Assembly: GCA_001460835.1 (NCBI GenBank)
Contig: CYKH01001607.1
Span: 6,338 to 30,627, forward strand
Length of the DNA stretch: 24,290 bases
Reading direction: 5' to 3'
Source of the DNA: Bodo saltans
Taxonomy: Eukaryota; Euglenozoa; Kinetoplastea; Eubodonida; Bodonidae
Position numbers and translations under genes: made by a program. Under the pieces are notes generated by a model. That model was not told the DNA's origin. It made no database searches and saw only the letters and a list, made by a program, of their open reading frames with translations. Shown one piece after another: positions 784 through 24,265 of the stretch. Position 1 is the stretch's first letter; each line of letters begins with the position of its first letter.

Positions 784-3606
784 ATGATGAGCAATGAAAA
801 GCCGACTCACACTCCAGCCACAGCTCCCACACCACCAGTTTCAGGTGGAGGAGAAGCGGCCAGTGGCTTGTGGCGTTCAGAGACAATGGTCAAACTGGAC
901 ATGACGATGCCGCGCGACGCTACCCACGATACTGTGTTTCAATTAGGACTCCTTGGATGCTGCGAGTTTGTCGATGCTCAACCGAATACCCCAGCGTTTC
1001 AACGGCCATACACGTCAGACATCAGAAGGTGCGATGAGTCCCTTCGACGGCTGCGATATGTGGAGGGGTTCTTACAGCGGTACCATGTGCTGGTGCCGAC
1101 GTCTGCTCCAGAGACTGTTCTTCAACCGGGTACCACGTCAGCCTCGTCGACAACATCAGCAGCAACGAGGTCAGGGCGACTATCAACGCCTGCTCAAGGA
1201 CAAGCTGCCGCTCTTCAAGGCACTTCAGTTCCGTCGTTGCGTAAAAGAGATCGTGAAGAACAAAGCCCAACGGTTCCTCAGGCATCGATGCTGACTCTTG
1301 ACCGCGTGGAGGGTATGACGGAGTCACAGGAACGTGAGTTGCGTGGCATTGCCGACACGCTGACGGGATGTCGCCGAGAGGTGCGGAAACTAAAAGAGAC
1401 GATCCTCGTCAGCCGCGCATTGAGCAGTGAATCTGGTGGTGGGAGCTCAGGAACGTACGGCACAAGATCGACGACAAACGTGACGACGGCTGTTGCCGTG
1501 GGATCTTCTGGTGCTGTTGCCGCACCCCAGCAGCATTTTGTCGCTGGTATGTTTTCCAACGCGAAGCTTGAGACGCTTCATCGTTTGATCTATCGCGTAA
1601 GCAGGGGCAACGCAATGTTCCGACTTCACGGTGTTGAGGATGATGCTCCATGGCTCAACAGTGTTGACGATAGTGACGATGATGAGGACGACGCGGAGGA
1701 AGACGGCGGTCGCGATACTCGCAAAGGGGCGACGACGGACCTGACCGATGATGGCGACAGCGGCGTGTCTCAGTCTGTGTTTATTGTGTATTGCTACGCA
1801 CCACGAATGCTCGAGAAACTTCAACGTGTTTGCCTCAACACCGGCGGTCGATTGTTTGATGCTTCCACCGCTGCAAGTGAACGTCAACTGAGCGATGAAC
1901 TCGAGACTTTGACCAGCACATATCGCCAAACGAAACAGCAGCTCTACGAACTCCTTCAACGATGCGCTGGGCACCACGAGCACCACAGTCATTTCTTGCT
2001 AGTCGAGAGGGCTGTGCTGACCACAATGAATCTGTTCCGCTACACAGGCGTTATGTGCCGTGTCTCGTTGTGGATCCCAGCGCGTCGCGATTCTGATGTC
2101 CGGGCCGCGTTGATTGAGGGCACACGGTCCTCCCACGCCGAAGCGCCAACGCTCCTCTCAAAGAGTAAGTCCCAAGCGAACCCACCAACGTTCTTCGACA
2201 CCAACAAGTACATCTCCATCTTCCAAGGAATCGTTGATAGCTACGGCATCGCACGATACAAAGAAGTAAATCCTGGCGTCTTTACCATCGTCACGTTCCC
2301 CTACTTGTTCGGGATCATGTACGGTGATGTTGGGCACGGGGTACTGCTCACGATGTTTGCCATTGGACTCATCGCCGCGGAGTCGCGTGTCGAGGGGAAG
2401 AAGCAGAATGAAATCTTTGCCATGATTTTCTCCGGACGGTATTTGCTGCTGCTGATGGGCCTCTTTGCCACGTACGTTGGATTGCTGTACAATGACTTCT
2501 TTGGCTATTCCGTCGGATTGTTCCCGTCGTCGTACACGTGGCCGGAGTTGCCGCTGACAACGGTAGGGGGAGGAGGTTCATCTGGACCGTCTGGTGTGGT
2601 TCACCCGCTCAACCCCAACGGCAGGCCCAGCGTGAAGCCGGACACCGTCTACCCCTTCGGTATCGATGTGGCGTGGGCCGAAACGGAAAACAAGCTGGAG
2701 TACTACAATTCTATCAAAATGAAGTGCGCCGTGATTGTTGGCATTATTCAAATGCTTGTGGGGATTTTACTATCGGCGATGAATTACATTCGTCGAAAGG
2801 AGACATACAAGTTGGTTTGTATTTTCATCCCGGAATTCATCTTCTTGTCGTGCACGTTCGGTTACATGGCGATCTTAATTGTCGTCAAGTGGTGCACGGT
2901 GTGGGAGAGCACGTACGATGCGCCGTCGTTGCTGGAAACCATGACGAACTTTTTCCTCAGCCCTGGTACTGTCACGAAGCCGTTGTTTGAGGGTCAAGGG
3001 GCCCTGCAAGCGTTTTTGCTTTTGCTTGCGTTTTCGACGACGCCGGTGATGCTCTTAGTCGCCCCGCGCATGGAAATGCGCGCTGAACAGAGAAAGCTCC
3101 GCCATCGGCCTGCACAATCGTGCGTCGACGAAGCGACGACTTCCGATGAGCGCAGTGGATTGGCTCCGCAGCAAGACGAGAACGGTGCCGACGATCATGA
3201 TGACGAACACGACGACGATGACGACGACGCAGTACCGCATGACAGCACTGAGATCACCATCCACTACATCATTCACACCATTGAGTTTGTACTCGGAGCG
3301 GTGTCCAATACAGCGTCGTACCTTCGACTGTGGGCATTGTCCTTGGCGCATGCACAACTTTCTGAGGTGTTCTTTCGTTTCGGCGTCGTGCAGACGTTGG
3401 GGATGGATACGTCGGGCGTGTTCACGGTGGTAGGTGCTGGGGTGTGGTTTGGTGCCACGATTGGAGTGCTGCTTGGTATGGAGGCCCTTTCTGCGTTTCT
3501 GCACAGTCTGCGATTGCACTGGGTTGAATTTCAGACCAAGTTTTACCAAGGAGATGGCGTTGCCTTCAACCCAATGGATCTTGTTGCCCTGCACCTTCAA
3601 AACTGA
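784..3606 (+). CDS. VPH1: V-type H+-ATPase subunit a (V0 sector)
   Basis: This is the membrane subunit of the vacuolar proton pump. It forms the proton half-channels against the c-ring and acidifies acidocalcisomes, endosomes and the contractile vacuole (family knowledge). The 940-aa product has a cytosolic N-terminal half starting with the family motif around WRSETMVKLDM and DTVFQLGLLG. A membrane half follows, with EVNPGVFTIVTFPYLFG and MYGDVGHG. The family's most conserved block is NTASYLRLWALSLAHAQLS; its Arg848 corresponds to the essential proton-channel arginine. The C-terminus keeps LHWVEFQTKFY. It is about 100 residues longer than typical relatives, because of a low-complexity loop at about 115-170, an acidic loop at about 295-326 and a Asp/His-rich loop at about 798-821. 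I start at 784 because it is the first ATG after the predicted splice AG at 773-774; 787 is also ATG. Family assignment is secure. Confidence 0.97.
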   Translation: MMSNEKPTHTPATAPTPPVSGGGEAASGLWRSETMVKLDMTMPRDATHDTVFQLGLLGCCEFVDAQPNTPAFQRPYTSDIRRCDESLRRLRYVEGFLQRYHVLVPTSAPETVLQPGTTSASSTTSAATRSGRLSTPAQGQAAALQGTSVPSLRKRDREEQSPTVPQASMLTLDRVEGMTESQERELRGIADTLTGCRREVRKLKETILVSRALSSESGGGSSGTYGTRSTTNVTTAVAVGSSGAVAAPQQHFVAGMFSNAKLETLHRLIYRVSRGNAMFRLHGVEDDAPWLNSVDDSDDDEDDAEEDGGRDTRKGATTDLTDDGDSGVSQSVFIVYCYAPRMLEKLQRVCLNTGGRLFDASTAASERQLSDELETLTSTYRQTKQQLYELLQRCAGHHEHHSHFLLVERAVLTTMNLFRYTGVMCRVSLWIPARRDSDVRAALIEGTRSSHAEAPTLLSKSKSQANPPTFFDTNKYISIFQGIVDSYGIARYKEVNPGVFTIVTFPYLFGIMYGDVGHGVLLTMFAIGLIAAESRVEGKKQNEIFAMIFSGRYLLLLMGLFATYVGLLYNDFFGYSVGLFPSSYTWPELPLTTVGGGGSSGPSGVVHPLNPNGRPSVKPDTVYPFGIDVAWAETENKLEYYNSIKMKCAVIVGIIQMLVGILLSAMNYIRRKETYKLVCIFIPEFIFLSCTFGYMAILIVVKWCTVWESTYDAPSLLETMTNFFLSPGTVTKPLFEGQGALQAFLLLLAFSTTPVMLLVAPRMEMRAEQRKLRHRPAQSCVDEATTSDERSGLAPQQDENGADDHDDEHDDDDDDAVPHDSTEITIHYIIHTIEFVLGAVSNTASYLRLWALSLAHAQLSEVFFRFGVVQTLGMDTSGVFTVVGAGVWFGATIGVLLGMEALSAFLHSLRLHWVEFQTKFYQGDGVAFNPMDLVALHLQN

Positions 3607-3945: not shown

Positions 3946-4752
3946 ATGGCATCGCTCCACTCCATCACGCTCGACGAGGAGGGCTGTTCGCACTATTACT
4001 TGTGCAATATTAGCCGGATCCCAATCTCAATGCCGTTGCAAATGGTGGCGGACTTTATTGTCCCCAAGCAGACGTCCTCGATCGTTGCGGAGCTGGAGAC
4101 GCTGGGAGTTCGCATCGTACCGCACAAGCTCCATTGTTATAAGGAAACGCTTCCCACAAAGTTTGGTTTCGTGTCGTACTTTCTGCACCACAAAGCGGAG
4201 GGGTCGCGTGACGATGAAAAGATTCATCAGTTGTTTGTGCAGTGGGCCACCACGGAGCTTCCAAAACAGACGGAATGCGATGTTCGCATTCGTCTTGCTC
4301 AACCTCTGAATTGCTGTCAATCTGGACCCTTTCTGCGACACCTGCACGCATCGTCGAAGGCATTGGCGAAGGAAGGCGGCGCGTTAGACGTTAAAAAGAT
4401 GGAAACATTTCTCTTGTCACACATCACGTTCTTCACGCAGGCGGAACTTGAGGAGTCTGCGGGTGCTGCAGGTTCACCGACGATCCGGAGAGTTGCATCT
4501 GAGAGTGAGTCTTGGGGCGTCGTCGGCACGATCGCTCCCTCCACGATTCCTGCGGTAGAGCTTGGTTGGCTGCGGAAGGAGCTGCCAGCTCATTTCCCCA
4601 AGGTGGCTGATGTGTCGTCCTTGGAAACATTTTTCTATGAAATTTTAGGTTCTTTGGTTGCGGTGGTGAGCGCTGAAGGCAGCGATGGTGCTGCTGTCGT
4701 GGAAATCGAATCACCCATCGCTACTGGCGCTGTGCCACCGGTCCCCAAATAA
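3946..4752 (+). CDS. Unrecognised 268-aa protein, probably soluble
   Basis: I do not recognise this family. The frame is clean from the first ATG after the splice signal to a TAA just before an A-rich 3' region. Codon use resembles the neighbours, and the gene sits in the normal polycistron spacing, so it is probably real. The product has no signal peptide and no convincing membrane segment. The N-terminal 150 residues look like a compact mixed alpha/beta fold with a Cys/His-containing start (EEGCSHYYLC) and a block around FGFVSYFLHHKAEG. A Ser/Ala-rich linker lies at about 170-185 (ESAGAAGSPTIRR). A second helical block (about 200-245, LGWLRKELPAHFPKV) is followed by a hydrophobic then Pro-rich tail. 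It may be a kinetoplastid-specific conserved hypothetical protein. No function is proposed. Confidence 0.8.
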   Translation: MASLHSITLDEEGCSHYYLCNISRIPISMPLQMVADFIVPKQTSSIVAELETLGVRIVPHKLHCYKETLPTKFGFVSYFLHHKAEGSRDDEKIHQLFVQWATTELPKQTECDVRIRLAQPLNCCQSGPFLRHLHASSKALAKEGGALDVKKMETFLLSHITFFTQAELEESAGAAGSPTIRRVASESESWGVVGTIAPSTIPAVELGWLRKELPAHFPKVADVSSLETFFYEILGSLVAVVSAEGSDGAAVVEIESPIATGAVPPVPK

Positions 4753-8256: not shown

Positions 8257-8427
8257 TCAAATATCGGAGGATGGGGACAAAACAAGAACACGCTGGCATT
8301 TCTCACTCCGGAGGCAAGCTGATGATATTCGTTGATGATAATTATTTTCTTTACCATCCCTCAAGATAGCACACATACACACAAAATAGATTTTGTTTTG
8401 GGTCTTATTCCCACCGAGTTTACTGTA

Positions 8428-8446
8428 GATTTTTTTGACGTCGCAG
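8428..8446 (+). promoter_or_regulatory. Predicted spliced-leader acceptor for the 307-aa membrane protein
   Basis: T tract 8430-8436, then AG at 8445-8446, then the ATG at 8455. An upstream tract with AG at about 8364-8365 is also good. No ATG lies between, so both predict the start at 8455 rather than further upstream. Confidence 0.5.
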
Positions 8447-8454
8447 AAGAGTGT

Positions 8455-9378
8455 ATGTCGGGAGTGATTAGCAGCGCACTTCGCGGGGGTGCGAGTCGCC
8501 TGGCAACGACAATGGCCCCTGAGGGCCACCGCAGTAGCCCTCCAGCGTCCTTTGACACTCTGTTGACTTGGTTTGCTATTTCCACGTTAGCCTACGTGTG
8601 CTTTATCAGGCTGCCTGCCCGGTTGGCCCCGCAGTATAGTTTGGTAACTCGCTCCGCCACCTCCTTCAATGATTTTGCGTGGGCTGCGCATAGTCTTCAT
8701 TTGTGTTCAACGTTGTGGGTAGTGTTCGACCTCGTATTCCGTGCGTTGTGCCTTCTGCTGTTGCCGCTGTCGTCGCTACGACGATTGCAGTACATCTACG
8801 TCGCTGCTGCCGCCTCACCATCGTCGGCTTCGTCGTCCGGTAGCCAACGCTCCTCCGTTCCTGTTGTATTTCCAGATAGCATCATGACGCTGTTAGATGG
8901 ACTTCGTGTAACGTTCACAGCCGGCGATTCGATCTTTCTTACGACAACTGCTGCGTCGTCTCCATCGTTCGTGGCCTCATCATCACCACTCGCCGCCTCT
9001 CCTTCTTCTGCCGACACAATGGAAGGCTCCCTTCCTCCTTTCGTTCTGAGCCTTCGAGCAGTGACGTGTCTCACCACCGCACTTTGCTTGACTGCGATTG
9101 TACTCTGCACGTGGTGGACCCACACGCGCAAGTACCTAAAAGGAACACTCCTTGAACAGAACATGACCATGACGGACCCGCGCACAGGTGACCCGATGCC
9201 CCTTCCCAAGCAGTACGCAGTCCCTGTCTCGGCCGTTCCCAAAACCACATGGATGCTGCTGTGGATGGTATGTGTCTTGAGCTGCTTTGCGTGGCATCGG
9301 GCACTTCCTGCGTTGACAAGTGTGGTGTTCCCTGCAGCGACGTGTGCATTGCTTGCATTGGACGTGTTGATGCCTTGA
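8455..9378 (+). CDS. Small multi-pass membrane protein, unrecognised
   Basis: The 307-aa product has at least four hydrophobic blocks: about 33-53, 74-106 (long enough for one long or two short helices), 198-222, and 265-307 (probably two helices running to the C-terminus). A Ser/Ala-rich, low-complexity loop of about 70 residues (120-195) separates the second and third blocks. A short polar segment (about 225-260) holds a DPRTGDPMPLPKQY stretch. I do not recognise the family and give no function. The frame is open upstream to 8332, with ATG at 8335, but that part contains two pyrimidine tracts with AGs, and the first ATG left after splicing is 8455. The 41 extra N-terminal residues (beginning MIIIFFTIPQ) are therefore unlikely to be translated. 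Confidence 0.78.
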   Translation: MSGVISSALRGGASRLATTMAPEGHRSSPPASFDTLLTWFAISTLAYVCFIRLPARLAPQYSLVTRSATSFNDFAWAAHSLHLCSTLWVVFDLVFRALCLLLLPLSSLRRLQYIYVAAAASPSSASSSGSQRSSVPVVFPDSIMTLLDGLRVTFTAGDSIFLTTTAASSPSFVASSSPLAASPSSADTMEGSLPPFVLSLRAVTCLTTALCLTAIVLCTWWTHTRKYLKGTLLEQNMTMTDPRTGDPMPLPKQYAVPVSAVPKTTWMLLWMVCVLSCFAWHRALPALTSVVFPAATCALLALDVLMP

Positions 9379-9662: not shown

Positions 9663-12600
9663 ATGCTTGGTGTTGAAAGAAAACGAAGCGGTGACACAAA
9701 CAGTGCGCTGTCCTCCACGAGGAGGCCGCATTCCCAGACAGTGATTGTGACGATTGCCAGCGAGCCACCTCCAACAAGCTCACGACAACAACTAGCCCAA
9801 CAACAGGGATCGTCGTCCCTTTCAGGGGAACGTACCACATCGTCCTCCTCGGGAGGCCAAAAACAACAACACGATCAGCAGCAACAACAACAGAAGCTCC
9901 AGCAGCAGCTACAACATCAACAGCGCCAGCAACTCGCGCGAATCCCAAACAACATTACGCTTCAAGATTTTGTTCCGGTGCTTCTAGAGACCGATGACGC
10001 GACCCCAGCTCGTGACACTTTCAGCTGGCTGTTTCCTGAATTCGGGCCAACTGAGGCCGAAGACGAATTTTCCATTTTTAATCAATTTCGGCGTGTGACA
10101 ACTTTCTTCGTCGTCCTCGCGTGCTTTATTGTGTATCTTCCTGCAACCATCGCGCGCATGACGGAGGATCACGGATCGTGCCGCGGTGCCGCGTGCATTA
10201 TCGGCCTCGTCTCTCAGATCCTATGGATATGGTGCGTTGTCGTCCTTGGATATCTCCTCCGACAGCACATCAAGTACACCCGACTATTTGAGTACAATAA
10301 GAAACACATTAGATCGGTGGGGAATCGTGTGCAGCAAGCGACATCGCCGGAAGCCTTCGCTAACCACACGCTCGATACCGTTCTCCCAGTGGCAGCTGCG
10401 GGCCAAGTTGGCACCTCGGTCGCCACCACAGCGATAGCACCGTCATCCGTGACGGAAGTAGAATCGTCAGCAATACCAAATACGTCGATGCCGGGAGTCC
10501 CCCCACTACTAGGCAGTGGTGGTGGAGTCGGCCCGACGGCAACAGCAACAGCGCCACCGTCCGCATTTTTGATAAGTGAGCTGCGCAGGTCTTCCATCAC
10601 GCTCGACATGGAAGGCCCACAATCGCCGACGATTGCGCAAAGCACAATCACAGTAGCAATGGACGAGCGCCAGAAGTACTTAGCATTAGCTCGTCAACGC
10701 ATGCGACTTCACGCAACCTGGCACGAAATCGCGTGTGGTTGCGCCTTGGTTGGCTTTTTTGGACATGGATTGGCGTTCCTGGCGGAACGTGAGAATTGTA
10801 CGCTTGGGATATCACACCTTTCGTTACAAGCTCAGAGAGAATCCTGCACACACACTGTTCAGCTGGAAGCCAGTTTTCTGATTGGGGCGTTGCTCTCTGC
10901 GACCGGCCTTATCCCAGTGCGCATGCCTTTAGTGATCTCCATCTTTAGCGTCGCAACTGCGTTCTTATTGCTCAGCTGGTGGTACTTGCGTCCACGAGTT
11001 GCCGAGGACATCACGTCGGCCTCTCACGGAGTCCTTGCTGTCGCTTGCAGTGCCGCCGTCATCACGGCGATGTGGAGAGCGTTCAAGAGGGAGCGCCATA
11101 TGCGCGTGGCGTTTAAGAAGCTCTGCGACATTCAAACCAACATCGCACAGCTGGCCATTCTCCGACAACACACAGGCAGCTTAGTCGGCCCCGCGATCCC
11201 ACCTGACATTGCCAAAATTGTTGCTACTCGCCAGGAGTTATTCGACTACAGCGGCGATGCTGCAGTTCTCTGCGTTGGAATACGCGACTTGAGTATCGTC
11301 GCGTCAGACTCTTCATGTTCAGAAATCACAGACTTCCTTCAACGGTGGTTTCTCGTCCTGGACTCAATCAAGTTGTGCTTCCCACGGTGCTTTAAAATTC
11401 ACTGCTTCGGGGACCGCTACATGGTGGTGGCAGGATGGGAACAATATCTCCCCAATGAAGAGAAGGAGAAGATGACAGCGGCGACTATCGCAGAAACACA
11501 ACGAGCAATAGATGGAAATAATGGAGCCGCGTCGAAAAATGCACATCAGCAACTTCGTGAAATGATTGGTCCGGAGGAGTCCAGCATGTTCCTGGAGCAA
11601 CCAACTCTGATGGTATCCCCTCCCCCCGCCCCGATATTATTGGTGCAGCAGCCCTCCTCTGAATTCTCTCCTGACCAGCCCGCATCGAATCCAGCGCTGA
11701 AGGCAAAATGGAACACAGAGTGTGTCTACAGCTTTGGCCTCGTGCTTGCACGCATACTCCAGCCAGAATTCTTTGAGCGGCTGTGGTGTACGGTGCGAGG
11801 GGTGTACTGGACTCCAGGAGCAACACCGCGATCGCGCGATGAATCCCAGATGGTGTCGGTTGCTATTTCCGCGGACATAGGTAGAGCCGCGGGAGTCTTG
11901 CTGGCCGGCACCACGTTAAGTTATGTTGCTGTAGGCGATGCCGTCTCGAGGTGCCAGCGATTGGTGAACAACGCGCCGTCATCGGGGTTCTTTGTCTCAC
12001 ACGAATTCCAGCGATGCTTGGGCTTCGCGGTGGACCCGTACATCTGCACAGTGATGCCAGACGAAACACAAAAATCTGCGATTGAACGAGAGCTGGAGTC
12101 GTCCCTTGGGGTCAATTTGTGGAACGCTCCCGTGTTGCAGTCCATTGGTGAGTCGATGGATGACAACGGTGCCAGCGTCGTTGTCGCTGCGGGCGACGAT
12201 CCTCACCATCACCAGCAACACGTGACCCCAGCAAGAAGGAAGATTGCTTCTGCAACGTCACCGCAAGACGAGGGTGTCTTTTTGGCAAATTCTGGACGAA
12301 GCCAGAACCCGAACATGCCCGTTCGCACTGTCAATAGTCTCACCATACATCAACAACAACAACTGCAGCAGCATAAGAAGCGCAGTCTTGGCGGCTCCAA
12401 TTCCCCTGCGGACGACTTCGTGTCGCCCCTTCCCTCGCCTAGTCTGCGAAACCCTCTTGTGCCGCAACAAAACACCCCAGGTGGAACACACATCCCTCCG
12501 CCCTCGCCCCAACAACAGCAGCAGCTCCAGTACCAACAAACGTTGATTCACTCATCTAGCAACCCGCTTCAAAATACATCGTCAGGAACGACACTGCTCC

Positions 12601-14372
12601 ACTCGAGCAGTTCTCGATCCCAAACCTCACAACAGATCCTTGAGCTCATCCACAAGGAGCTCGAAGTGAACCCCTTCTCAATCGAAGGAGATATTTTTGA
12701 CTTGTATCGACTCACGAATGACGAGTCCGAGAAACAGTACATCACGTGGGTGGAGCGTGCCACGGCAAAGCGACGCGAAGAATTTGTGACCTGGTTCCTG
12801 TTGTGTGTTGTGTGCAGCTTGGTCTATCTGGCGTCGACACTCATCTACGGGGCAAGTCTCGTGCCGATTCCATCCCCAGCATCTCTATTCTTGCTGAGCG
12901 CCATTATTGCGGTGTTCGGGATTCTGTTTACTTTGCTGTGGTACCCGTCCATGCTGGATGACTGGATGCTGTTATGTATCGGTGTCGTTCACCACGTGGC
13001 CGTCATGGCAGGCTTCTTCCAAGCTGTTGCGCAAGACGACGCGACACTCGCAGCCTCAAGCAGCCGGGCTGTCCTTCTCTGGTTGTTGACCCACGTGATC
13101 ATGGCGAGACTGCCTGCCCCTGCCACCTCCCACATTCTTGTGGATCTTGCACTTGATGCGCTATGGAGCGTTCCCTTCGTCGTCGTAAGTGGTGTCGCGT
13201 TTGCAAATACAACAGACGGGGTAGACCGAATGCCAAATGCCTACATCGCCACACACGTCATCGCGGAGTTGTTCGTATGTAGTCTGTTGTTGTTTGCACG
13301 CGCACGCAGCGAAGAAGCAAAGCGAAACACCTACGCCATCTCGATGCGCCTGAAGGACCTCAATGAATCGTACCGCAAAGACGTGTCGGATCTTCGCAAA
13401 CTTCTTGAGCGCCTTGTTCACAACAAAGACGTCGTTGATGAGCTTCTACCGGCGTTTGTGCAGCAACAGCAACAACAACAATTGCAGCAATCGCGGAGGC
13501 GCAGCAGCAAAGGCAGCAAAGGAAGTGGCAGTGCCGTCGGTGGTGGGCGTTCTGCTCGAGATACGATCCTCTTAGGGGTTTCGTCACACAACCCGCTTGC
13601 ATCCAGCCAAGCCACTCGAAGCGGCGGTGGGCTGATTGGCTCCGTGCGCGAGACGTCATTTTTGATCTGCACGATGGCGTTTAACGGGAACACACCGATG
13701 CCGAAAAGATCTTCGAGACGAGCGCAAGCAATGAATCAAATGAAGCCGATCTTAAAGCCAATGTGGAAGTTTTTTGGGCAGCTCGAGGAGGTGCTCACGA
13801 ATAATCCAGAATGTGCTGGTGCGACAGTGGTGAAAACAAATGGCGACATGATTCTCTTCACCCCTAAAACAGAGCGAAGTGGTGGTGGTAGTGGTGGCGA
13901 CGCCAATGACGACGCGAATGTTGATAACAATGCGAACAGCGGAAACATGGAGCCTCGTTCGTCCAGAATCATCGGCTCTGTAAGCATGCTGGAACTTGCA
14001 TTGGCGCTGTATCACTTAGGTGCGTCTGTGTCGGGTGTGGAGATGCGTCTGGTGTTGTCCTTTGGGCCCCTTGCAGGAGCAATTTTAGGCTCATGCGCCC
14101 TTTCACTAGAATACTACGGATCTTCGGCGTTTATTGCGTACGAACTCACTCAGCGCGCATTGCCACGCGTTGTTGCAACGGACACATTTATTCGCACAGC
14201 ACCGGCAGAAGTGAGTAAGAGCGAAAAATGGTCGTTGGGATCGCCCCAAAATGAACGGATTCAGCAGTACGGATTCGTGCGCGTTGTTCCTGTCGTGTTC
14301 AAGCAAGCTCCTACACTTGACGGCTCTCGCCGAAGCACTACAACAGGGACCGCCTTGCCGCGGTGGCAGTAA
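9663..14372 (+). CDS. Double-cassette class III cyclase-like membrane protein (6TM-C1-6TM-C2), probable pseudoenzyme
   Basis: The 1569-aa protein begins with a Gln-rich tail (about 60-95). Six membrane helices follow between about 146 and 475, with a long Ser/Thr/Pro loop after the second. A class III nucleotidyl cyclase homology domain lies at about 510-790 and is recognised by GDRYMVVAG. It continues with a second core, VSVAISADIGRAAGVLLAG then VGDAVSRCQRL. A Gln/Ser-rich linker (about 800-1010) leads to six more helices (about 1039-1212), a short coiled segment and a degenerate second cyclase-like domain (about 1330-1530, VVKTNGDMILF and LEYYGSSAFIAYEL). This is the topology of animal transmembrane adenylyl cyclases. 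By eye-alignment C1 keeps the second metal Asp (584) but has Gly539 for the first. C2 keeps the Lys (1391) but has Glu1483, Phe1490 and Glu1494 at the Asp, Asn and Arg positions. Activity looks unlikely; a regulatory role is inference. Confidence 0.88.
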   Translation: MLGVERKRSGDTNSALSSTRRPHSQTVIVTIASEPPPTSSRQQLAQQQGSSSLSGERTTSSSSGGQKQQHDQQQQQQKLQQQLQHQQRQQLARIPNNITLQDFVPVLLETDDATPARDTFSWLFPEFGPTEAEDEFSIFNQFRRVTTFFVVLACFIVYLPATIARMTEDHGSCRGAACIIGLVSQILWIWCVVVLGYLLRQHIKYTRLFEYNKKHIRSVGNRVQQATSPEAFANHTLDTVLPVAAAGQVGTSVATTAIAPSSVTEVESSAIPNTSMPGVPPLLGSGGGVGPTATATAPPSAFLISELRRSSITLDMEGPQSPTIAQSTITVAMDERQKYLALARQRMRLHATWHEIACGCALVGFFGHGLAFLAERENCTLGISHLSLQAQRESCTHTVQLEASFLIGALLSATGLIPVRMPLVISIFSVATAFLLLSWWYLRPRVAEDITSASHGVLAVACSAAVITAMWRAFKRERHMRVAFKKLCDIQTNIAQLAILRQHTGSLVGPAIPPDIAKIVATRQELFDYSGDAAVLCVGIRDLSIVASDSSCSEITDFLQRWFLVLDSIKLCFPRCFKIHCFGDRYMVVAGWEQYLPNEEKEKMTAATIAETQRAIDGNNGAASKNAHQQLREMIGPEESSMFLEQPTLMVSPPPAPILLVQQPSSEFSPDQPASNPALKAKWNTECVYSFGLVLARILQPEFFERLWCTVRGVYWTPGATPRSRDESQMVSVAISADIGRAAGVLLAGTTLSYVAVGDAVSRCQRLVNNAPSSGFFVSHEFQRCLGFAVDPYICTVMPDETQKSAIERELESSLGVNLWNAPVLQSIGESMDDNGASVVVAAGDDPHHHQQHVTPARRKIASATSPQDEGVFLANSGRSQNPNMPVRTVNSLTIHQQQQLQQHKKRSLGGSNSPADDFVSPLPSPSLRNPLVPQQNTPGGTHIPPPSPQQQQQLQYQQTLIHSSSNPLQNTSSGTTLLHSSSSRSQTSQQILELIHKELEVNPFSIEGDIFDLYRLTNDESEKQYITWVERATAKRREEFVTWFLLCVVCSLVYLASTLIYGASLVPIPSPASLFLLSAIIAVFGILFTLLWYPSMLDDWMLLCIGVVHHVAVMAGFFQAVAQDDATLAASSSRAVLLWLLTHVIMARLPAPATSHILVDLALDALWSVPFVVVSGVAFANTTDGVDRMPNAYIATHVIAELFVCSLLLFARARSEEAKRNTYAISMRLKDLNESYRKDVSDLRKLLERLVHNKDVVDELLPAFVQQQQQQQLQQSRRRSSKGSKGSGSAVGGGRSARDTILLGVSSHNPLASSQATRSGGGLIGSVRETSFLICTMAFNGNTPMPKRSSRRAQAMNQMKPILKPMWKFFGQLEEVLTNNPECAGATVVKTNGDMILFTPKTERSGGGSGGDANDDANVDNNANSGNMEPRSSRIIGSVSMLELALALYHLGASVSGVEMRLVLSFGPLAGAILGSCALSLEYYGSSAFIAYELTQRALPRVVATDTFIRTAPAEVSKSEKWSLGSPQNERIQQYGFVRVVPVVFKQAPTLDGSRRSTTTGTALPRWQ

Positions 14373-15071: not shown

Positions 15072-15390
15072 AGCATATGGCCAATAACTACATCCCAACA
15101 AAAATGAGATTTGAGAGTATGAATGGGGAAGGAACGACGCGCTACTAGAAAAGAGAGGAGGTTCTCACAAGGCACCCTCTAAATCTTTTTTAAGTGGTAT
15201 TTTTATTTATTTTGCTCCCTCCCCATCTTCCGTGCGCAAAACCCCTTACTAAACAGCACGCAGCACAAGGAACCTTTAGTCCAACTCTCCACCACACGTT
15301 AACACACAATTTTTGATCACATTACTCTGGTAATTGTTTTTGGATGTTTATCGCGATACTCACTATCTCTTTTTCAAAATACAATAATGA

Positions 15391-15441
15391 TTTTTTCCCC
15401 CGCTTTCGCTTTCTCTTTGATAACAAACGTTAACGACATAG
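15391..15441 (+). promoter_or_regulatory. Predicted spliced-leader acceptor for the tepsin-like gene
   Basis: A strong C/T tract (15391-15418) is followed by the first AG at 15440-15441. The ATG at 15387 lies before the tract, so the mRNA would start translation at 15480 (or 15486). Confidence 0.6.
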
Positions 15442-15479
15442 AGAGTGAGAAGGTATCGCGCACCAATTTCAACATCATC

Positions 15480-17591
15480 ATGGCAATGGCAACGATCGTT
15501 GGGCAGTTCAAGGACGCCACCAATCCATTTGTTCGGCTTATCACTGCCGCCACCACCGAGGACGGCAACATGAACGTGCCTTACTATCAAATCGAGGAGA
15601 TTCGAGAGGCGTCGTTTCAATCCGACTATGCATGCGAGTCGATCCACCGAGCCATCTTGCAACGCATCGAGTACTACAATTATCCTTTTATCGTCAGTAA
15701 GTGCTTGTGCTTGATGCGGGTGTTGATGATGGAGGGCCCGGCCTCGTTCAACCACAAAATGGGCGCTGCGTCTGGCCGATTGTTGCATATTATCAATGAC
15801 TCCAATGAGGTGCGAAAAAATACAGTTGAGGAAAGAAATAAATTTCTCGCTGGCGCGATCCATCAAGCGATTAGCGGTGATAGCAAAGCTCTAGTGAACT
15901 TTGGTGACCCTAACGGGAAACCAAATAATGTCCCACCGAAGGCGACCACAGCCACAGCTGGAGGCGCATCCGCTGCGCCGTCACACAAGTCCGAGTTCCA
16001 GTTGCAGCAAGAGCGCGAGCAGCGTAACCACCGCAAGCGCATCGAAGACGAAAAGCGTGGCGGAGCGATGGTCGTGAGCGATCGGCTGTTGGACTCCTTC
16101 GATGGCACCCTCACACCAGTCAAATTGGTGGAGAGCGTGACGTCGTCGCCAAAGAAGAAGTTCGCACCTGAGGAGATCGACTCGTTCGTGAGCGCCACGC
16201 TTCAAACAGAGAAGGTGCCACAAGTGTGTGCCGCACTAGATGCTGTACTGCGCGACGGAAAATCATCGCTGCAAAATCGATTTAAAGTCCTGGCGATGGT
16301 AGAGGCCCTCGCCACCGCCTCAAGCGACGCACAACAATACTTCAAAGGTCACCCTCTCGGTTGGCAGCGGCACTTGTCGATTGAACGCGTGGATAACCCT
16401 GCAAAGGCGGAGGCTGCGAAGAGTGTCGCGCAACGCATCTCTGCCCTTGTGGTCAACGCTGTCCCTCAAATTCAAACTGCGTCGTCGGCTCGACCAAGAG
16501 GAAGCTCAACGGTTGTAGTCGCTCAACCACAAACATCTTCATCCTCGTCCAACTTTAGCAGCAATCAGCAACAATTCCAGCAGCAACCAGCAAAGGCATC
16601 TGCTCAGTGGGAGTGGAACGGTCCCAGTGCTGTGCCAACGAGCGCCGTGGGCAACTTGGACGATCTTTTCTCAAACATGTCGGTCCGCAATGGCAGTGCT
16701 GCTCCGCAGCAGCAGCAGCAGCCAACGAATTCATTCTCATCTAACAACTTCTGGAACTCCGGCCCCCCTGCGGCTCCCCCACAGCAACAGCAGCAGTTTC
16801 AGCAGCAGCAATATCAGCAACAGTTCAATCAACCCCAGTACCAGCAGTACCAAGGTCCGCCGCCCCAACAGTACCAGCAGCAACCTCAGCCTCAGCCTCA
16901 GCAGTATGGTTTCCCTTCGCCTGCGTTGGCGTATCAAACACCAGCGGTCCCGAACAATTCGATGGTATTCTCATACTCCTCCACAGACTTGCCGCCCGCA
17001 CCGAATAACTCCTTTGTAGCACTCCCACCACCGCAGCAGCAACAACAAGTTGAGGCACCTCCTCCCACACAGGCAGAGCTACTGAGGAAGCAGATGGAAG
17101 AATTCCAACTGACAATGATGCGCATGATGCAACAAGCCCAGCAGCAGCAACAACAACAAACTGCTGCCCCAGCCGTTGCCCCAGTTGTTGTTCCAGCGCC
17201 GTTACCGTCATCGCCGCCGCAACCAGCGGTGCAGCAACAGCACCAACAACCGATTGCGACAACAACGCCTGAGAAGAACATCGCGGAAGCTCCAACTGCT
17301 TATGGTGCCACAGATGATCGACGACAAAACGCTGAAACGGACGATGCAGAAGAAGAATCACCATCATCTGCTCCTTCGAACCCACAAGAATCCACATCAG
17401 CAGCACCAGTGGCGGCGTCTACCTCCCCACCTCCTGGTGCTCCTGGAGCGCACAATGAAGCAGCGATCGCAATGATGCTGCAACTTCAGCAACAAATGGA
17501 AGCTACCCAACGAATGCTAGCACAGCAACAAGCGGCGTTCCAGGCGCTATCTGCGCAAGTTCTCGGAACTGCACCACCACCACCTCAATAA
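15480..17591 (+). CDS. ENTH/VHS-like clathrin- or AP-adaptor accessory protein, tepsin-like
   Basis: The 703-aa protein has an N-terminal ENTH/ANTH-type helical domain (about 1-137, with VPYYQIEEIREAS and LCLMRVLMMEG). A charged linker follows, then a second helical bundle at about 229-326 (APEEIDSFVSATLQ to AKSVAQRISALV). The rest is a long Gln/Pro-rich tail with a final Gln-rich amphipathic segment. ENTH plus a second VHS-like bundle is the layout of tepsin, the AP-4 accessory protein, and not of epsin or epsinR, which have no second bundle. In the tail, LFSNMSV (396-402) resembles tepsin's LFxG[M/L]x[L/V] motif, which binds the AP-4 beta ear; here Asn replaces Gly. Tepsin's second, C-terminal motif was not found. 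The frame extends 31 codons upstream to 15387 through the pyrimidine tract, so 15480 is preferred. It lies 314 bases upstream of AP-2 mu. The ENTH call is firm; the tepsin orthology is probable. Confidence 0.82.
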   Translation: MAMATIVGQFKDATNPFVRLITAATTEDGNMNVPYYQIEEIREASFQSDYACESIHRAILQRIEYYNYPFIVSKCLCLMRVLMMEGPASFNHKMGAASGRLLHIINDSNEVRKNTVEERNKFLAGAIHQAISGDSKALVNFGDPNGKPNNVPPKATTATAGGASAAPSHKSEFQLQQEREQRNHRKRIEDEKRGGAMVVSDRLLDSFDGTLTPVKLVESVTSSPKKKFAPEEIDSFVSATLQTEKVPQVCAALDAVLRDGKSSLQNRFKVLAMVEALATASSDAQQYFKGHPLGWQRHLSIERVDNPAKAEAAKSVAQRISALVVNAVPQIQTASSARPRGSSTVVVAQPQTSSSSSNFSSNQQQFQQQPAKASAQWEWNGPSAVPTSAVGNLDDLFSNMSVRNGSAAPQQQQQPTNSFSSNNFWNSGPPAAPPQQQQQFQQQQYQQQFNQPQYQQYQGPPPQQYQQQPQPQPQQYGFPSPALAYQTPAVPNNSMVFSYSSTDLPPAPNNSFVALPPPQQQQQVEAPPPTQAELLRKQMEEFQLTMMRMMQQAQQQQQQQTAAPAVAPVVVPAPLPSSPPQPAVQQQHQQPIATTTPEKNIAEAPTAYGATDDRRQNAETDDAEEESPSSAPSNPQESTSAAPVAASTSPPPGAPGAHNEAAIAMMLQLQQQMEATQRMLAQQQAAFQALSAQVLGTAPPPPQ
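16782..16907 (+). repeat. CAG/CAA-rich polyglutamine tract
   Basis: This in-frame run of mostly CAG and CAA codons is broken by Tyr, Phe and Pro, giving a Q/Y/P-rich low-complexity tail. Mixed CAG/CAA use argues against recent simple triplet expansion. Similar shorter runs occur at 16709-16722 and 17131-17160. Confidence 0.7.
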
Positions 17592-17905
17592 AAGCGCACT
17601 AGCAACGAACCGATGTAAGCGACGAGGTATCTCTATATTTTTTTTTCTTGTCGCGTGAGGATATCACTATGTGTGTTGTGGTCCGATCTGTGCGGGACGA
17701 CCTTTTTATCGAATGCAGCTCGTTATAAGCTGAAGGGAGTGAAACACGTTTCTGCTAGTAACAAAATGGCGTGTCTGCTGCTTGAGCGCACGTAAGTTCA
17801 TAACTTTTCTTCAGTTTCACAGTTTTGCTTCTCCTTTCTTTTTTCCGCTGCCAACGAACCAGAAGAAGGATCTAGCGGAAGGATAGAATTTAAGAGAAGG
17901 GTCGA
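17592..17905. other. Gap between the tepsin-like and AP-2 mu genes
   Basis: This is 314 bases with no gene. A T9 run lies near 17638-17646. A nine-codon ORF starts at 17766, upstream of the predicted splice AG. No RNA gene was recognised. Confidence 0.5.
17823..17862 (+). promoter_or_regulatory. Predicted spliced-leader acceptor for AP-2 mu
   Basis: A pyrimidine tract (17823-17847) is followed by the first AG at 17861-17862, and the first ATG after it is 17906. Confidence 0.6.
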
Positions 17906-19285
17906 ATGATCTCAGCTCTACTCTTCATGACCTCCAGAGGTGAGGTTGTTCTCTCTCGTGCGTTCCGAGACGGAGTCGTCATTCGTAATGTTGCCGACAC
18001 ATTTCGTGATGACATTATTGCCACCAAGCTCGTGGAAAGGTCTCCGGTGAACATGGTCGATCGTCTTTGCTACATTCATTTCCGACATGAGAATTTACTG
18101 CTCGTCGCTGTGGGAAGGCCTGACGTGAATGTATTCCTTGTCATCCAACTCCTCTTGAAACTGATGCAACTATTGTCCGATTATTTTGGCCGTGTGAGTG
18201 AACCTGCCATCAAAGACAATTTTATTGTCGTGCAAGAGTTAATCGATGAAACCATCGACTTTGGCTACCCACAGATCACGGAATCTGAACTGCTCAAGAT
18301 GTACGTGACAACGACGTCAGGAGTGAAAGGCGACGCAATTCGTCGCGCTAAAGACGCGCAGAAGATTACCATCAACGCGACAGGAAATATTCCATGGAGA
18401 AAAGATGGTATCGTGTACAAGGACAATGAAGTCTTCATGGACGTTGTCGAGGAGGTGAATTTGTTGATGTCCCAAAGTGGTGAGGTGCTGCAGAGAGATA
18501 TCGTCGGACGTGTTGTCGTGCGCTGCTTCCTTTCCGGAATGCCGGAATGTTTCATGACGATCAACGACAAAGCCTTAACGGCAAATGCGATTGAACGGCA
18601 GCAACAACAGCTTGGTGGGAGTAGCAGCAGCGGCATTGTCAACCTCGACGCGACGACCACAGATGCCGCAGCTGATGGTACAGTGGGTCTCGATGATGTG
18701 TCATTCCACCCCTGTGTCCGGCTCGGCGCTTTCGATGCAGAGCGCGCCATTTCGTTTGTCCCACCGGATGGCGAGTTTGTCCTGATGAGGTATCGCACTT
18801 CGGGGAACCTTGTCCCCCCGCTGAAGGTCCTCACTTCGCGCGCCAAGGAAGTGTCTAAGACACGCATGGAGGTAGATTTCCATCTTCAGTGTGACATGGA
18901 CCCCAAATATTTCCTGTCACACCTGGTGGTCAAAATTCCTTGCCCCGCCAACACAGCAAACGCCAAAGTTCGAGTGTTGGTTGGGAAAGCCAAGTACGAC
19001 CCCTCGCAACAGGCGATTGTATGGAAGATGAAGAGAATGGAGGGAGGCACGACTACTGAATTTAGTGCTGAGATCAACATGATTGCGGTGACCGCCGCGG
19101 ATGCTGATGCGCTCAAGACTGTCTGGGGAAGGCCGCCCATCTCCTTGTCTTTCGCCACGGAGGTGTACTCTGCTAGCGGTTTGCGTGTGGAGAAGTTGAA
19201 GGTGACAGAGTCGAAACTGCTGTACGAACCGAAGAAGTGGGTTCGCTACATTTCGAGCGCTGGGCAATATCAATCTCGATTGTAA
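17906..19285 (+). CDS. AP2M1: AP-2 complex mu subunit (mu2 adaptin)
   Basis: Medium chain of the AP-2 clathrin adaptor, which selects YxxPhi cargo at the plasma membrane. The 459-aa product has the N-terminal longin-like domain (GEVVLSRAFRD, DNFIVVQELIDETIDFGYP) and the C-terminal mu homology domain. Several blocks match mu2 better than mu1, mu3 or mu4: GRVVVRCFLSGMPEC, FVPPDGEFVLMRYRTSG, GKAKYDPSQQAIVWKMKRM and RPPISLSF. The tyrosine-signal pocket residues are all present: Phe177, Asp179, Trp445 and Arg447 correspond to Phe174, Asp176, Trp421 and Arg423 of mammalian mu2. Thr159 in ATGNIPWR sits at the position of the regulated Thr156 (AAK1 site). An insertion of about 15-20 residues rich in Gln, Ser and Ala lies at about 230-255. 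The ATG is the first after the splice AG. The mu assignment is certain; the AP-2 class is strongly supported by eye. Confidence 0.95.
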   Translation: MISALLFMTSRGEVVLSRAFRDGVVIRNVADTFRDDIIATKLVERSPVNMVDRLCYIHFRHENLLLVAVGRPDVNVFLVIQLLLKLMQLLSDYFGRVSEPAIKDNFIVVQELIDETIDFGYPQITESELLKMYVTTTSGVKGDAIRRAKDAQKITINATGNIPWRKDGIVYKDNEVFMDVVEEVNLLMSQSGEVLQRDIVGRVVVRCFLSGMPECFMTINDKALTANAIERQQQQLGGSSSSGIVNLDATTTDAAADGTVGLDDVSFHPCVRLGAFDAERAISFVPPDGEFVLMRYRTSGNLVPPLKVLTSRAKEVSKTRMEVDFHLQCDMDPKYFLSHLVVKIPCPANTANAKVRVLVGKAKYDPSQQAIVWKMKRMEGGTTTEFSAEINMIAVTAADADALKTVWGRPPISLSFATEVYSASGLRVEKLKVTESKLLYEPKKWVRYISSAGQYQSRL

Positions 19286-21202: not shown

Positions 21203-24200
21203 ATGCGGAGGTGGGTCCAGTCGCGTCATCCCATCATGCAGTGGTTTTGTCAGCCCACCGCCGAAGCAATCCGTGCAACAGCATCAACCCCAGGGCCTCA
21301 GCAAACATCCGATGCGCTCCATCAAGCAATCGTAGAATGCTTGTCCAAGAATAAGCTAAAAAGTGGCACTGTTTTCGCGTATCTAGGGAATTTCGAGGAG
21401 ATGCGGCGCTATGCGGATGAGATTGAAGCGGCCCGAGGGGAGCTTGTGTCGGCGACGGGCTGCGCGCTATCAGATGTCCTCACTGTCAAGGAGATTGAGA
21501 GCCTTGCAGATAAGCACGGGCTGAAAAAAATCATGCGGCCGGAATGCTCGGATTGGACTTCGTTGATACCAACGGACTCTGTCCATGCGGACGTTAGAGC
21601 GCATGTGGAGCAGCGCCGTAATCCACACAAGCACGACACATCAGTCCTGTGCAACTATGGGCCCTCTGGCAGTGGCAAGTCCGTGCAGCTGCTACACACA
21701 ACGGCGGTGGCGACGCAGATCATTGGGGGCATGGTGCGCAGAGGAGTCAGCGACGACGTGGAGCGCGAGAGGTGTCGGCCACTTGGATTTTGCGTTTCGT
21801 TTACACGACACGATGGAACCGGCAGCTACAAGGATAGGGACGAGTTGACGCCCCCTAGCGGACAACTCTTGATCCTTACTGCGATTGCGCTGCGAATGGC
21901 GTTCGCCGTGATGGAGCGCAGCCGTTACACAAGCACTCCTGACGAAAGCAACTATTACAGTTATTTTGTAGATAAAATGATTGATAAGTGTGATATGACA
22001 AACGACAAGGGGAACTTCGACAGCATCGTTGCAGCGCTACGGCAGGTGTTGAAGTGGGAAGGGCCGATGTTCATCGCCGTGGACAGCTTTCTGCGGGCTT
22101 TTGACTACAAAGCGCCTGCGATCGCAACAGGATTTTCGACAGTATGCCGGGAGCTGCTCGACGAGTCGCCGGTGCTGCCGATCTCGTCGTCTGAGGAGAC
22201 GGGTCCTGTGATCTACGAGCGGTACCTTGCGATATCATCGTTCTATCCTGTCCACGCTGTTGATTTTGCTGCGAAGGCAAACAGGCGACTGATCATGCAG
22301 CCAACTGCGCTGCTCGATCTGTGCGACATCTCACGTGCGTTTGCACACGGCACAGCGGTAATCAATGTGCCCCCTCAGTACGCGACGCTTTTTGCTTCTG
22401 GTCATGTGGGCCTTACGAACGAGCAGCTGCTGTTCCTGATTCACCTGGCGCTATCCACGGGACTACCACAGGAAGTTTCGTCGTGTCTTCAGCAACACAG
22501 GCATGACGTGCCTGGGAAGAAATATGGTGGAGTGGACGATTTTGTGACGCATATGTTGTGGTTGCGCAGCGGTAGCGGTAATTTATCGTCCATCACGGAG
22601 AACATGTGCGTTTGCGCGTGCGAACTGGTGGTTGGGCTTGTGAACTCGAACATCTTCATGGGCGACGACAGCGACCGCCGAGCCTTTGCACTATCCGAGA
22701 GACTTGAGTGGGACTGTTTTGTGTCTCAAACCATGCCTACCCGTGCCCTCGTCTCGCCAAATTTTCTATCCTCTGTGATACATGGTTGGCCTGAATCGGG
22801 GAAAAAGCGTTTTATGAGGTACCACGTGGGCAATCTTAGGAGCACTATTTCAAAGCACGCACAAATGTCGTTCAAACTACTTGAAGCAGCTCCCCACCTC
22901 GTTGCGCCATCGAATGCGGAGCTTTCTCGCCGACTGGTTCAACGCTGGATCGTCACAACTGCGGTGGCACTTGGGGATCTTACGTTCCGTGCGTTGTGCC
23001 TTCGCTTTGCGTGTGCACTTTGCGCCATTGGCGGTGCGACTTGTGACCATCTGCTGACCGACGTCTGCTCTCACATAAAGAGTAAAAAGCGTTTTATGAG
23101 GTACCACGTGGGCAATCTTAGGAGCACTATTTCAAAGCACGCACAAATGTCGTTCAAACTACTTGAAGCAGCTCCCCACCTCGTTGCGCCATCGAATGCG
23201 GAGCTTTCTCGCCGACTGGTTCAACGCTGGATCGTCACAACTGCGGTGGCACTTGGGGATCTTACGTTCCGTGCGTTGTGCCTTCGCTTTGCGTGTGCAC
23301 TTTGCGCCATTGGCGGTGCGACTTGTGACCATCTGCTGACCGACGTCTGCTCTCACATAAAGAGTGATGGCGGTGTGTTTCCAGATGTTCAGTTTTCCTC
23401 TGGTCCACTTGTTGTGGTATCAAACATTGAGGTTTATCCACGTGAATATCCGTACGATGATCACTACCCGTATGATGACGAGCACGCTAAGTTCCTTGCG
23501 AAAAAGGAGCGTGATGAGTTCGAGGCGCTTTTGGTTGCATCCAAACACACTTCTGGCTCGCTTCACGTAGCGGACTCGAGCCAAAAGCAAGAAGAGCTGC
23601 AGAATACCGTCGATGTTCTTCGTGAGGTTGCCGAGGAATTGATGCCTTCGCAGTGCTGCTTCGAGGAGGTACACAAGTCGCCGTACGAGCGGATCCAGGT
23701 GGCACTGGCCAAAGGTGATCACTTCTCGATTCAGCCGCGTGAGGTCTCTAAAGTAACACAAAGAGACAAACCCCCAATCACAGAAAGAAAACCCAAAGGC
23801 AAACCAACCAAGAAGTCCCTCAGTTCGCAGATCCGGACGGATCAAAAAGCGAAACCCATCTTTCACTGGAGCGACGACGGCGTGATGTTCCTTCGTGAGA
23901 AGGGTGCTGAGTGGGCGTGGGTTGTGTTTTTGGTGCAGGCCGCTCGTGACATTGCGCAGTGCAGTCATACAGAATGCAAGGAGTCTCACCACATTACCGA
24001 GGCTTGCCGAATGAACCTTGCGCCCTTACCCAGCAACATCACGGACGCGGACGGAAAGGTCCACACGCTTCGATACGTGAAGATCCTGGTCACCGCGGAC
24101 CCTATCGAGCACGAGAGCAAATCATCTGATGTTGGAAGTGACCTTCCGAAGGATGTGATTGCGGTGTGCTTCATGGACATCGACACGATCAAGACATGGT

Positions 24201-24265
24201 GCCCGACGGTTGGGATGTTTGCGGGGAACCTTGAGAAGATTCGCCAACTTGCGGGCGCTCCGTAG
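21203..24265 (+). CDS. Large P-loop NTPase, possibly RHS/Crinkler-like, with internal duplication
   Basis: The 1020-aa product has a Walker A motif GPSGSGKS (153-160, Lys159) and a plausible Walker B, MFIAVDSF (Asp294), spaced as in AAA/STAND-type ATPases. After the ATPase core comes a helical region containing two identical 94-aa units (residues 534-627 and 628-721). An acidic Tyr/Asp patch (EYPYDDHYPYDDEH), a basic linker (KPKGKPTKKS) and a C-terminal domain beginning near HWSDDGVMFLREKGAEW follow. No signal peptide or membrane helix is seen. The overall plan, an N-terminal region, a P-loop core and a variable C-terminal domain, recalls the RHS and Crinkler-like NTPase families expanded in kinetoplastids. 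I cannot align it confidently, so the family is tentative. The start is the first ATG after the predicted splice AG. The stop lies 25 bases from the window end. Confidence 0.8.
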   Translation: MRRWVQSRHPIMQWFCQPTAEAIRATASTPGPQQTSDALHQAIVECLSKNKLKSGTVFAYLGNFEEMRRYADEIEAARGELVSATGCALSDVLTVKEIESLADKHGLKKIMRPECSDWTSLIPTDSVHADVRAHVEQRRNPHKHDTSVLCNYGPSGSGKSVQLLHTTAVATQIIGGMVRRGVSDDVERERCRPLGFCVSFTRHDGTGSYKDRDELTPPSGQLLILTAIALRMAFAVMERSRYTSTPDESNYYSYFVDKMIDKCDMTNDKGNFDSIVAALRQVLKWEGPMFIAVDSFLRAFDYKAPAIATGFSTVCRELLDESPVLPISSSEETGPVIYERYLAISSFYPVHAVDFAAKANRRLIMQPTALLDLCDISRAFAHGTAVINVPPQYATLFASGHVGLTNEQLLFLIHLALSTGLPQEVSSCLQQHRHDVPGKKYGGVDDFVTHMLWLRSGSGNLSSITENMCVCACELVVGLVNSNIFMGDDSDRRAFALSERLEWDCFVSQTMPTRALVSPNFLSSVIHGWPESGKKRFMRYHVGNLRSTISKHAQMSFKLLEAAPHLVAPSNAELSRRLVQRWIVTTAVALGDLTFRALCLRFACALCAIGGATCDHLLTDVCSHIKSKKRFMRYHVGNLRSTISKHAQMSFKLLEAAPHLVAPSNAELSRRLVQRWIVTTAVALGDLTFRALCLRFACALCAIGGATCDHLLTDVCSHIKSDGGVFPDVQFSSGPLVVVSNIEVYPREYPYDDHYPYDDEHAKFLAKKERDEFEALLVASKHTSGSLHVADSSQKQEELQNTVDVLREVAEELMPSQCCFEEVHKSPYERIQVALAKGDHFSIQPREVSKVTQRDKPPITERKPKGKPTKKSLSSQIRTDQKAKPIFHWSDDGVMFLREKGAEWAWVVFLVQAARDIAQCSHTECKESHHITEACRMNLAPLPSNITDADGKVHTLRYVKILVTADPIEHESKSSDVGSDLPKDVIAVCFMDIDTIKTWCPTVGMFAGNLEKIRQLAGAP
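22802..23083 (+). repeat. 282-bp tandem repeat, copy 1
   Basis: This unit begins at AAAAAGCGTTTTATGAGG and ends at CACATAAAGAGT. It is followed at once by an identical unit. The length is divisible by three and the unit starts on a codon boundary, encoding 94 residues from KKRFMRYHV to CSHIKS. Confidence 0.98.
23084..23365 (+). repeat. 282-bp tandem repeat, copy 2
   Basis: Read base by base, this copy is identical to 22802-23083, with no difference found. The flanking bases differ at both outer ends, so exactly two full units are present, joined head to tail. Confidence 0.98.

Follow-up and report, generated by a model that had tools for sequence, protein, structure and literature searches.

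The window analysed here is a 24,290-nucleotide stretch of Bodo saltans DNA in which positions 9663-14372 of the forward strand encode a 1569-residue protein with predicted similarity, in the order of its parts, to membrane-bound adenylyl cyclases, the enzymes that produce the signal cAMP. The coding frame has the top codon-usage score among the three forward frames, with a weak bias. The family-matched neighbours encode V-ATPase subunit a, a fatty-acid elongase, a MORN-repeat protein, an ENTH-like protein, for which the Pfam match is under the cut-off, an adaptor medium subunit and a mitochondrial carrier; all are uninterrupted ORFs on the same strand, a run in the style of kinetoplastid gene order. 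The ENTH-like protein has long Gln-rich stretches and adjoins the adaptor-complex medium subunit (15387-19285), so that two vesicle-coat genes are adjacent. The ORF directly upstream of the cyclase-like gene (8332-9378) encodes four to five hydrophobic segments and has no Pfam or NCBIfam match, and the same searches gave none for a 268-residue ORF (3946-4752), the codon usage of which resembles that of conserved neighbours. Near the end of the window, an ORF (21203-24265) that we take, by eye, to resemble kinetoplastid retrotransposon hot spot ATPases contains a perfect tandem duplication of 282 bases (22802-23365; two copies of 94 codons, in frame and 100% identical), which is either recent or an assembly fault. 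In the cyclase-like gene itself, an imperfect CAG/CAA repeat (9876-9931) encodes the Gln-rich N-terminal tail. The features of the protein, as assigned or predicted, are:

9663-14372, forward strand: whole ORF (P0001), 1569 amino acids, ATG to stop with zero internal stops
9663-10094, forward strand: N-terminal Q/S-rich tail, residues 1-144 (translation)
10095-11084, forward strand: cassette 1, six hydrophobic segments, residues 145-474 (hydropathy)
11085-11213, forward strand: positively charged helix and VGPAIPPDIA motif, residues 475-517, at the signalling-helix position of six-transmembrane (6TM) cyclases (HMM alignment)
11190-12062, forward strand: C1, cyclase-homology domain (CHD), residues ~510-800 (own HMM, hhalign, sub-cut-off match to Pfam PF00211)
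11277-11279, forward strand: Gly539, at the C1 first metal-binding Asp position (own HMM alignment)
11412-11414, forward strand: Asp584, the C1 second metal-binding Asp, kept (own HMM alignment)
11463-11717, forward strand: C1 low-complexity insert following strand 3, residues 601-685 (alignments)
11946-11960, forward strand: Ser762 (Asn1025 position) and Arg766 (Arg1029 position, kept) of C1 (HMM alignment)
12213-12722, forward strand: Q/S-rich linker, residues 851-1020 (translation)
12789-13295, forward strand: cassette 2, six hydrophobic segments, residues 1043-1211 (hydropathy)
13296-13472, forward strand: charged helix ending DELLPAFV, residues 1212-1270 (MAFFT alignment to the LLxNxLP motif of bacterial cyclases)
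13644-14318, forward strand: C2, putative CHD, residues ~1328-1552 (own HMM, alignment-assisted AlphaFold model, Foldseek, VIA-align)
13833-13847, forward strand: Lys1391 (Lys938 position) and Asp1395 (second metal Asp) of C2, both kept (alignments)
14109-14144, forward strand: Glu1483, Phe1490 and Glu1494, at the Asp1018, Asn1025 and Arg1029 positions of C2 (alignments)

Membrane segments were called by a 19-residue hydropathy scan, which placed six in cassette 1 (residues 145-163, 177-195, 356-374, 399-417, 419-437 and 456-474) and six in cassette 2 (1043-1061, 1074-1092, 1101-1119, 1136-1154, 1158-1176 and 1193-1211). Segments 10 and 11 are the weakest of the twelve, and the remaining three hydropathy peaks (730, 1436 and 1463) fall within the cyclase-like domains. 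As controls, the same scan recovered six helices in most mycobacterial 6TM cyclases and gave none or few segments in soluble neighbours; it erred in calling segments in the adaptor mu and RHS-like proteins, both expected to be soluble, and in missing every helix of the mitochondrial carrier. A topology with the N-terminus inside fits the protein, as the positive flanks and the longest loops (the Ser/Thr-rich, 160-residue TM2-TM3 loop of cassette 1, and the C1 region) come out cytoplasmic, with N378 and N1182, predicted to be glycosylated, on the outside; both cyclase-like domains are predicted to be cytoplasmic. The start-to-start spacing of helices in cassette 2 (31, 27, 35, 22, 35) is similar to that of mycobacterial Cya (28, 24, 31, 19, 35), both having a tight TM4-TM5 pair, and cassette 1 (32, 179, 43, 20, 37) follows the same pattern except for its long TM2-TM3 loop, a suggestive likeness to bacterial 6TM cyclases. 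By BLAST, cassettes 1 and 2 have no significant similarity to each other. Cassette 2 has no match among PDB sequences, which is consistent with the lack of sequence conservation of adenylyl cyclase membrane domains across isoforms (PMC9552081).

C1 is assigned securely, from its sequence, to the class III cyclase-homology domains. The Pfam PF00211 match (residues 533-609) stays below the 21.9-bit cut-off, scoring 18.0 bits when the whole protein is searched and 20.8 bits for the domain by itself, and an NCBIfam search gave no relevant match. We combined 27 bacterial cyclase domains with six PDB-derived sequences in an HMM, which scores C1 at 26.4 bits once the low-complexity insert is removed. 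The best of 2000 shuffles scored 8.7, and among 975 unrelated ORF segments none came as high as C1; after additional trimming of the helix-strand linker, the score rises to 33.9 bits in a single match through the whole domain. In hhalign, C1 gives P 2.3e-7 over 169 columns. Mycobacterial Cya is among its best PDB sequence matches, which are weak; relatives of C1 or of the whole protein were sought in viral contigs and none was found. AlphaFold prediction of C1 from the single sequence, without an alignment, produced no usable fold (pLDDT 33.5).

The sequence evidence that C2 is also a cyclase-homology domain is weaker, lying above background but short of proof. A Pfam search of C2 gave no match, BLAST detected no significant similarity between C1 and C2, and the HMM score of C2 is borderline (2.8-4.2 bits, depending on trimming), being equalled by 2-6 of 975 unrelated segments with the combined model, by 0-2 of 975 with the mammalian model, and by 3 to 12 among 2000-3000 shuffles; hhalign (P 0.012) is near noise. 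The alignment of C2 was taken from a trimmed set, the set that included C1 and the helix having misplaced strand 1. Across the alignments, the blocks stand in the order of a cyclase: VVKTNGDMILF (the metal hairpin, with Lys-Gly-Asp), VEMRLVLSFGPLAGAILG (strand 4 onward) and YYGSSAFIAYEL (the substrate helix), followed, in one alignment only, by YGFVRVVPVV on the last strands. AlphaFold prediction of residues 1324-1560 with 22 bacterial relatives as the alignment gave a model with mean pLDDT 68.6 and pTM 0.64, for which the best Foldseek match is 5o5l_A, a bacterial adenylyl cyclase (E 2.7e-7), while VIA-align ranks soluble guanylyl cyclase beta first, at Z 18.4 with an rmsd of 2.9 across 184 residues. 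The first-pass annotation had proposed a cyclase-like domain here, and the Foldseek result agrees with it for a model that is biased to this fold: since the input alignment was made of cyclases, the model indicates that C2 can fit the fold, which was not independently found.

An unlikely reading of these data is that C1 is the sole cyclase-homology domain, that the C-terminal domain is something different, and that the protein resembles animal adenylyl cyclases only in part. The absence of a Pfam match, an HMM score within reach of 0-6 of 975 unrelated segments depending on the model, and the assistance given to the fold model count in its favour. Against it stand the motifs of C2, which are in register across the whole domain; the C2 insert (residues ~1403-1427), which the alignments place at the position matching that of C1; the location of C2, likewise following a six-helix cluster; and the fold matches listed for the C2 model, all of which are cyclases. 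C2 is a putative second, divergent CHD, supported by the model and motifs, and the order 6TM-CHD-6TM-CHD in a single chain is likewise putative, since it hinges on C2 being a CHD. The double-cassette layout put forward in the first-pass annotation stands to this extent: there are two six-segment clusters by hydropathy and a cyclase-like domain after each, the second being weaker by sequence.

Catalytic positions were numbered by rat AC2, with calibration. In C1, besides the replacement of the first metal-binding Asp by Gly539, His580 replaces Lys938 and Val755 replaces Asp1018. C2 lacks a first metal-binding Asp: the placement of its strand 1 varies between alignments and no register supplies an acidic residue, the region of strand 1 and the start of the next helix (residues 1331-1374) containing zero Asp or Glu, so that a shifted alignment cannot restore the ligand. 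Neither domain aligns with both metal-binding Asp residues, and the transition-state Asn and Arg pair is complete in neither (Phe1490/Glu1494 in C2, Ser762/Arg766 in C1). The lost positions are nearly invariant in the comparison set (first metal Asp in 30/33 sequences, Asn in 30/33, Arg in 31/33); there are three exceptions at the metal positions, and the set contains equally many mammalian C2 domains, which depend on C1 for metals. The four residues named in the first-pass annotation (G539, D584, F1490 and E1494) are found exactly where it placed them, and the catalytic loss is larger than it had described, extending to the first metal Asp of C2, to the base-selecting Lys and Asp and the Asn of C1, and to both composite sites.

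The domains C1 and C2 may pair head to tail. Site A would then combine Gly539 and Asp584 of C1 with Lys1391, Glu1483, Phe1490 and Glu1494 of C2. Site B, in turn, would combine the Asp-less first strand and Asp1395 of C2 with His580, Val755, Ser762 and Arg766 of C1. Because C2 lacks the first metal Asp and C1 lacks the Lys, Asp and Asn, both composite sites of such a dimer would be incomplete; because each is short of one metal ligand and of all or part of the transition-state pair, neither should make cAMP or cGMP. It is very unlikely that the protein is instead an active cyclase with unusual residues, for example with Asp543 as first metal ligand and with Lys1391, Asp584 and Asp1395 sustaining slow catalysis. 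Each domain does have the second metal Asp, C2 keeps the Lys938 position and has a conservative Asp-to-Glu change at 1483, and Arg766 is present in C1; however, the use of Asp543 requires a slide of four residues that disrupts the hydrophobic first strand, HMMER and hhalign alike place Gly539 at the metal position, and where an Asn/Arg pair is expected C2 has Phe/Glu and C1 has Ser/Arg. Just as improbable is that the protein has no pseudoenzyme function, the gene being in decay under relaxed selection or an assembly error having fused two genes: the weak codon bias over cassette 1 (0.005) and C1 (-0.002) versus 0.05-0.14 in conserved neighbours, the very long tree branches, and the perfect tandem copy elsewhere in the window, which could be an assembly fault, lean that way, but the 4710 bases are free of stops, the order of elements fits a known class of protein and each membrane cassette retains its six-segment pattern, and the intact 1569-residue frame argues against a decayed gene without proving function.

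The explanation that we consider fairly likely is that the gene encodes a pseudocyclase with double-cassette architecture, one that is related to the 12-TM, two-CHD membrane adenylyl cyclases but has diverged and is no longer catalytic. With key catalytic residues gone from both possible sites, the protein probably senses or scaffolds instead of producing cAMP, a function that we infer from its sequence. The membrane bundles may sense a cue in the membrane or from outside, which the signalling helices would relay to the C1:C2 module; the output of this module may be the binding of a partner or a nucleotide, for instance to tune the active receptor cyclases of the cell. Partner binding as the output, taken by itself, is less likely than not, and the tuning of active receptor cyclases would be our preferred, speculative form of it.

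Animal AC1-AC9 (ADCY1-9) share with the predicted layout of this protein the order 6TM-C1-6TM-C2, a signalling helix before each CHD and two non-identical CHDs per chain (PMC9552081), but have one working site (both metal Asp residues in C1; Lys, Asp, Asn and Arg in C2), whereas both sites are incomplete here, and lack its low-complexity inserts and 160-residue TM2-TM3 loop. The bacterial 6TM cyclases (Cya/Rv1625c) resemble each cassette in helix spacing and differ in having a single cassette, homodimers and intact catalytic residues. Soluble guanylyl cyclase alpha/beta, an unlike pair of CHDs with one site degenerate, includes the top structural neighbours of the C2 model, but consists of separate soluble subunits with one working site. 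The trypanosomatid receptor adenylate cyclases (ESAG4/GRESAG4) share the class III fold and presumably the host lineage, but have one TM helix, an extracellular domain and one CHD (PMC4534343, PMC6337498). That plan, a single TM helix between an extracellular domain and one CHD, differs from the two six-helix clusters and two CHD-like domains found here, and ESAG4/GRESAG4 cyclases were absent among the sequence matches of the 1569-residue protein. Support for the one-helix form of trypanosomatid receptor cyclases assumed in the first-pass annotation comes from the literature, which contrasts the 12 TM segments of mammalian cyclases with the single TM domain of trypanosomatid cyclases, with one soluble exception (PMC4534343; PMC6337498). 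Cyclases go unmentioned in the main text of the paper on the Bodo saltans genome (PMC4728078), a species for which CRISPR is reported (PMC9544060), and the open-access papers searched yielded no description of a kinetoplastid cyclase with 12 TM segments, which need not mean that none exists; a membrane cyclase of Giardia, AC2, is described (PMC10636121).

A maximum-likelihood tree places C1 beside mammalian C1 domains (82/47, weak) and C2 with long bacterial branches, placements that are meaningless because both end branches have 10 changes per column. C1 prefers the profile of mammalian C1 domains (11.7 bits versus 0.9 for mammalian C2), and C2 prefers that of mammalian C2 domains (2.0 bits versus -0.4 for mammalian C1). 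Together with the helix spacing, these profile preferences are weak hints of shared descent with the animal enzymes, and the double cassette may also have arisen by independent duplication. A broader proposal, which we offer tentatively and regard as rather unlikely, is that kinetoplastids or their free-living relatives possess a membrane receptor derived from animal-type double-cassette cyclases, in which neither site makes cyclic nucleotides any longer and signalling runs through protein contact, the two six-helix bundles being the functional part kept by selection.

One open question about adenylyl cyclases is the role of their large membrane domains (PMC12414865), which have been proposed to be lipid receptors (PMC11606603). 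A non-catalytic double-cassette protein, if the pseudocyclase interpretation is true, would uncouple the role of the membrane part from cAMP synthesis. It would also place an animal-type layout in a lineage known, from the open papers searched, for one-helix and soluble cyclases only, and would thereby bear on the age of the duplication and fusion that produced this layout.
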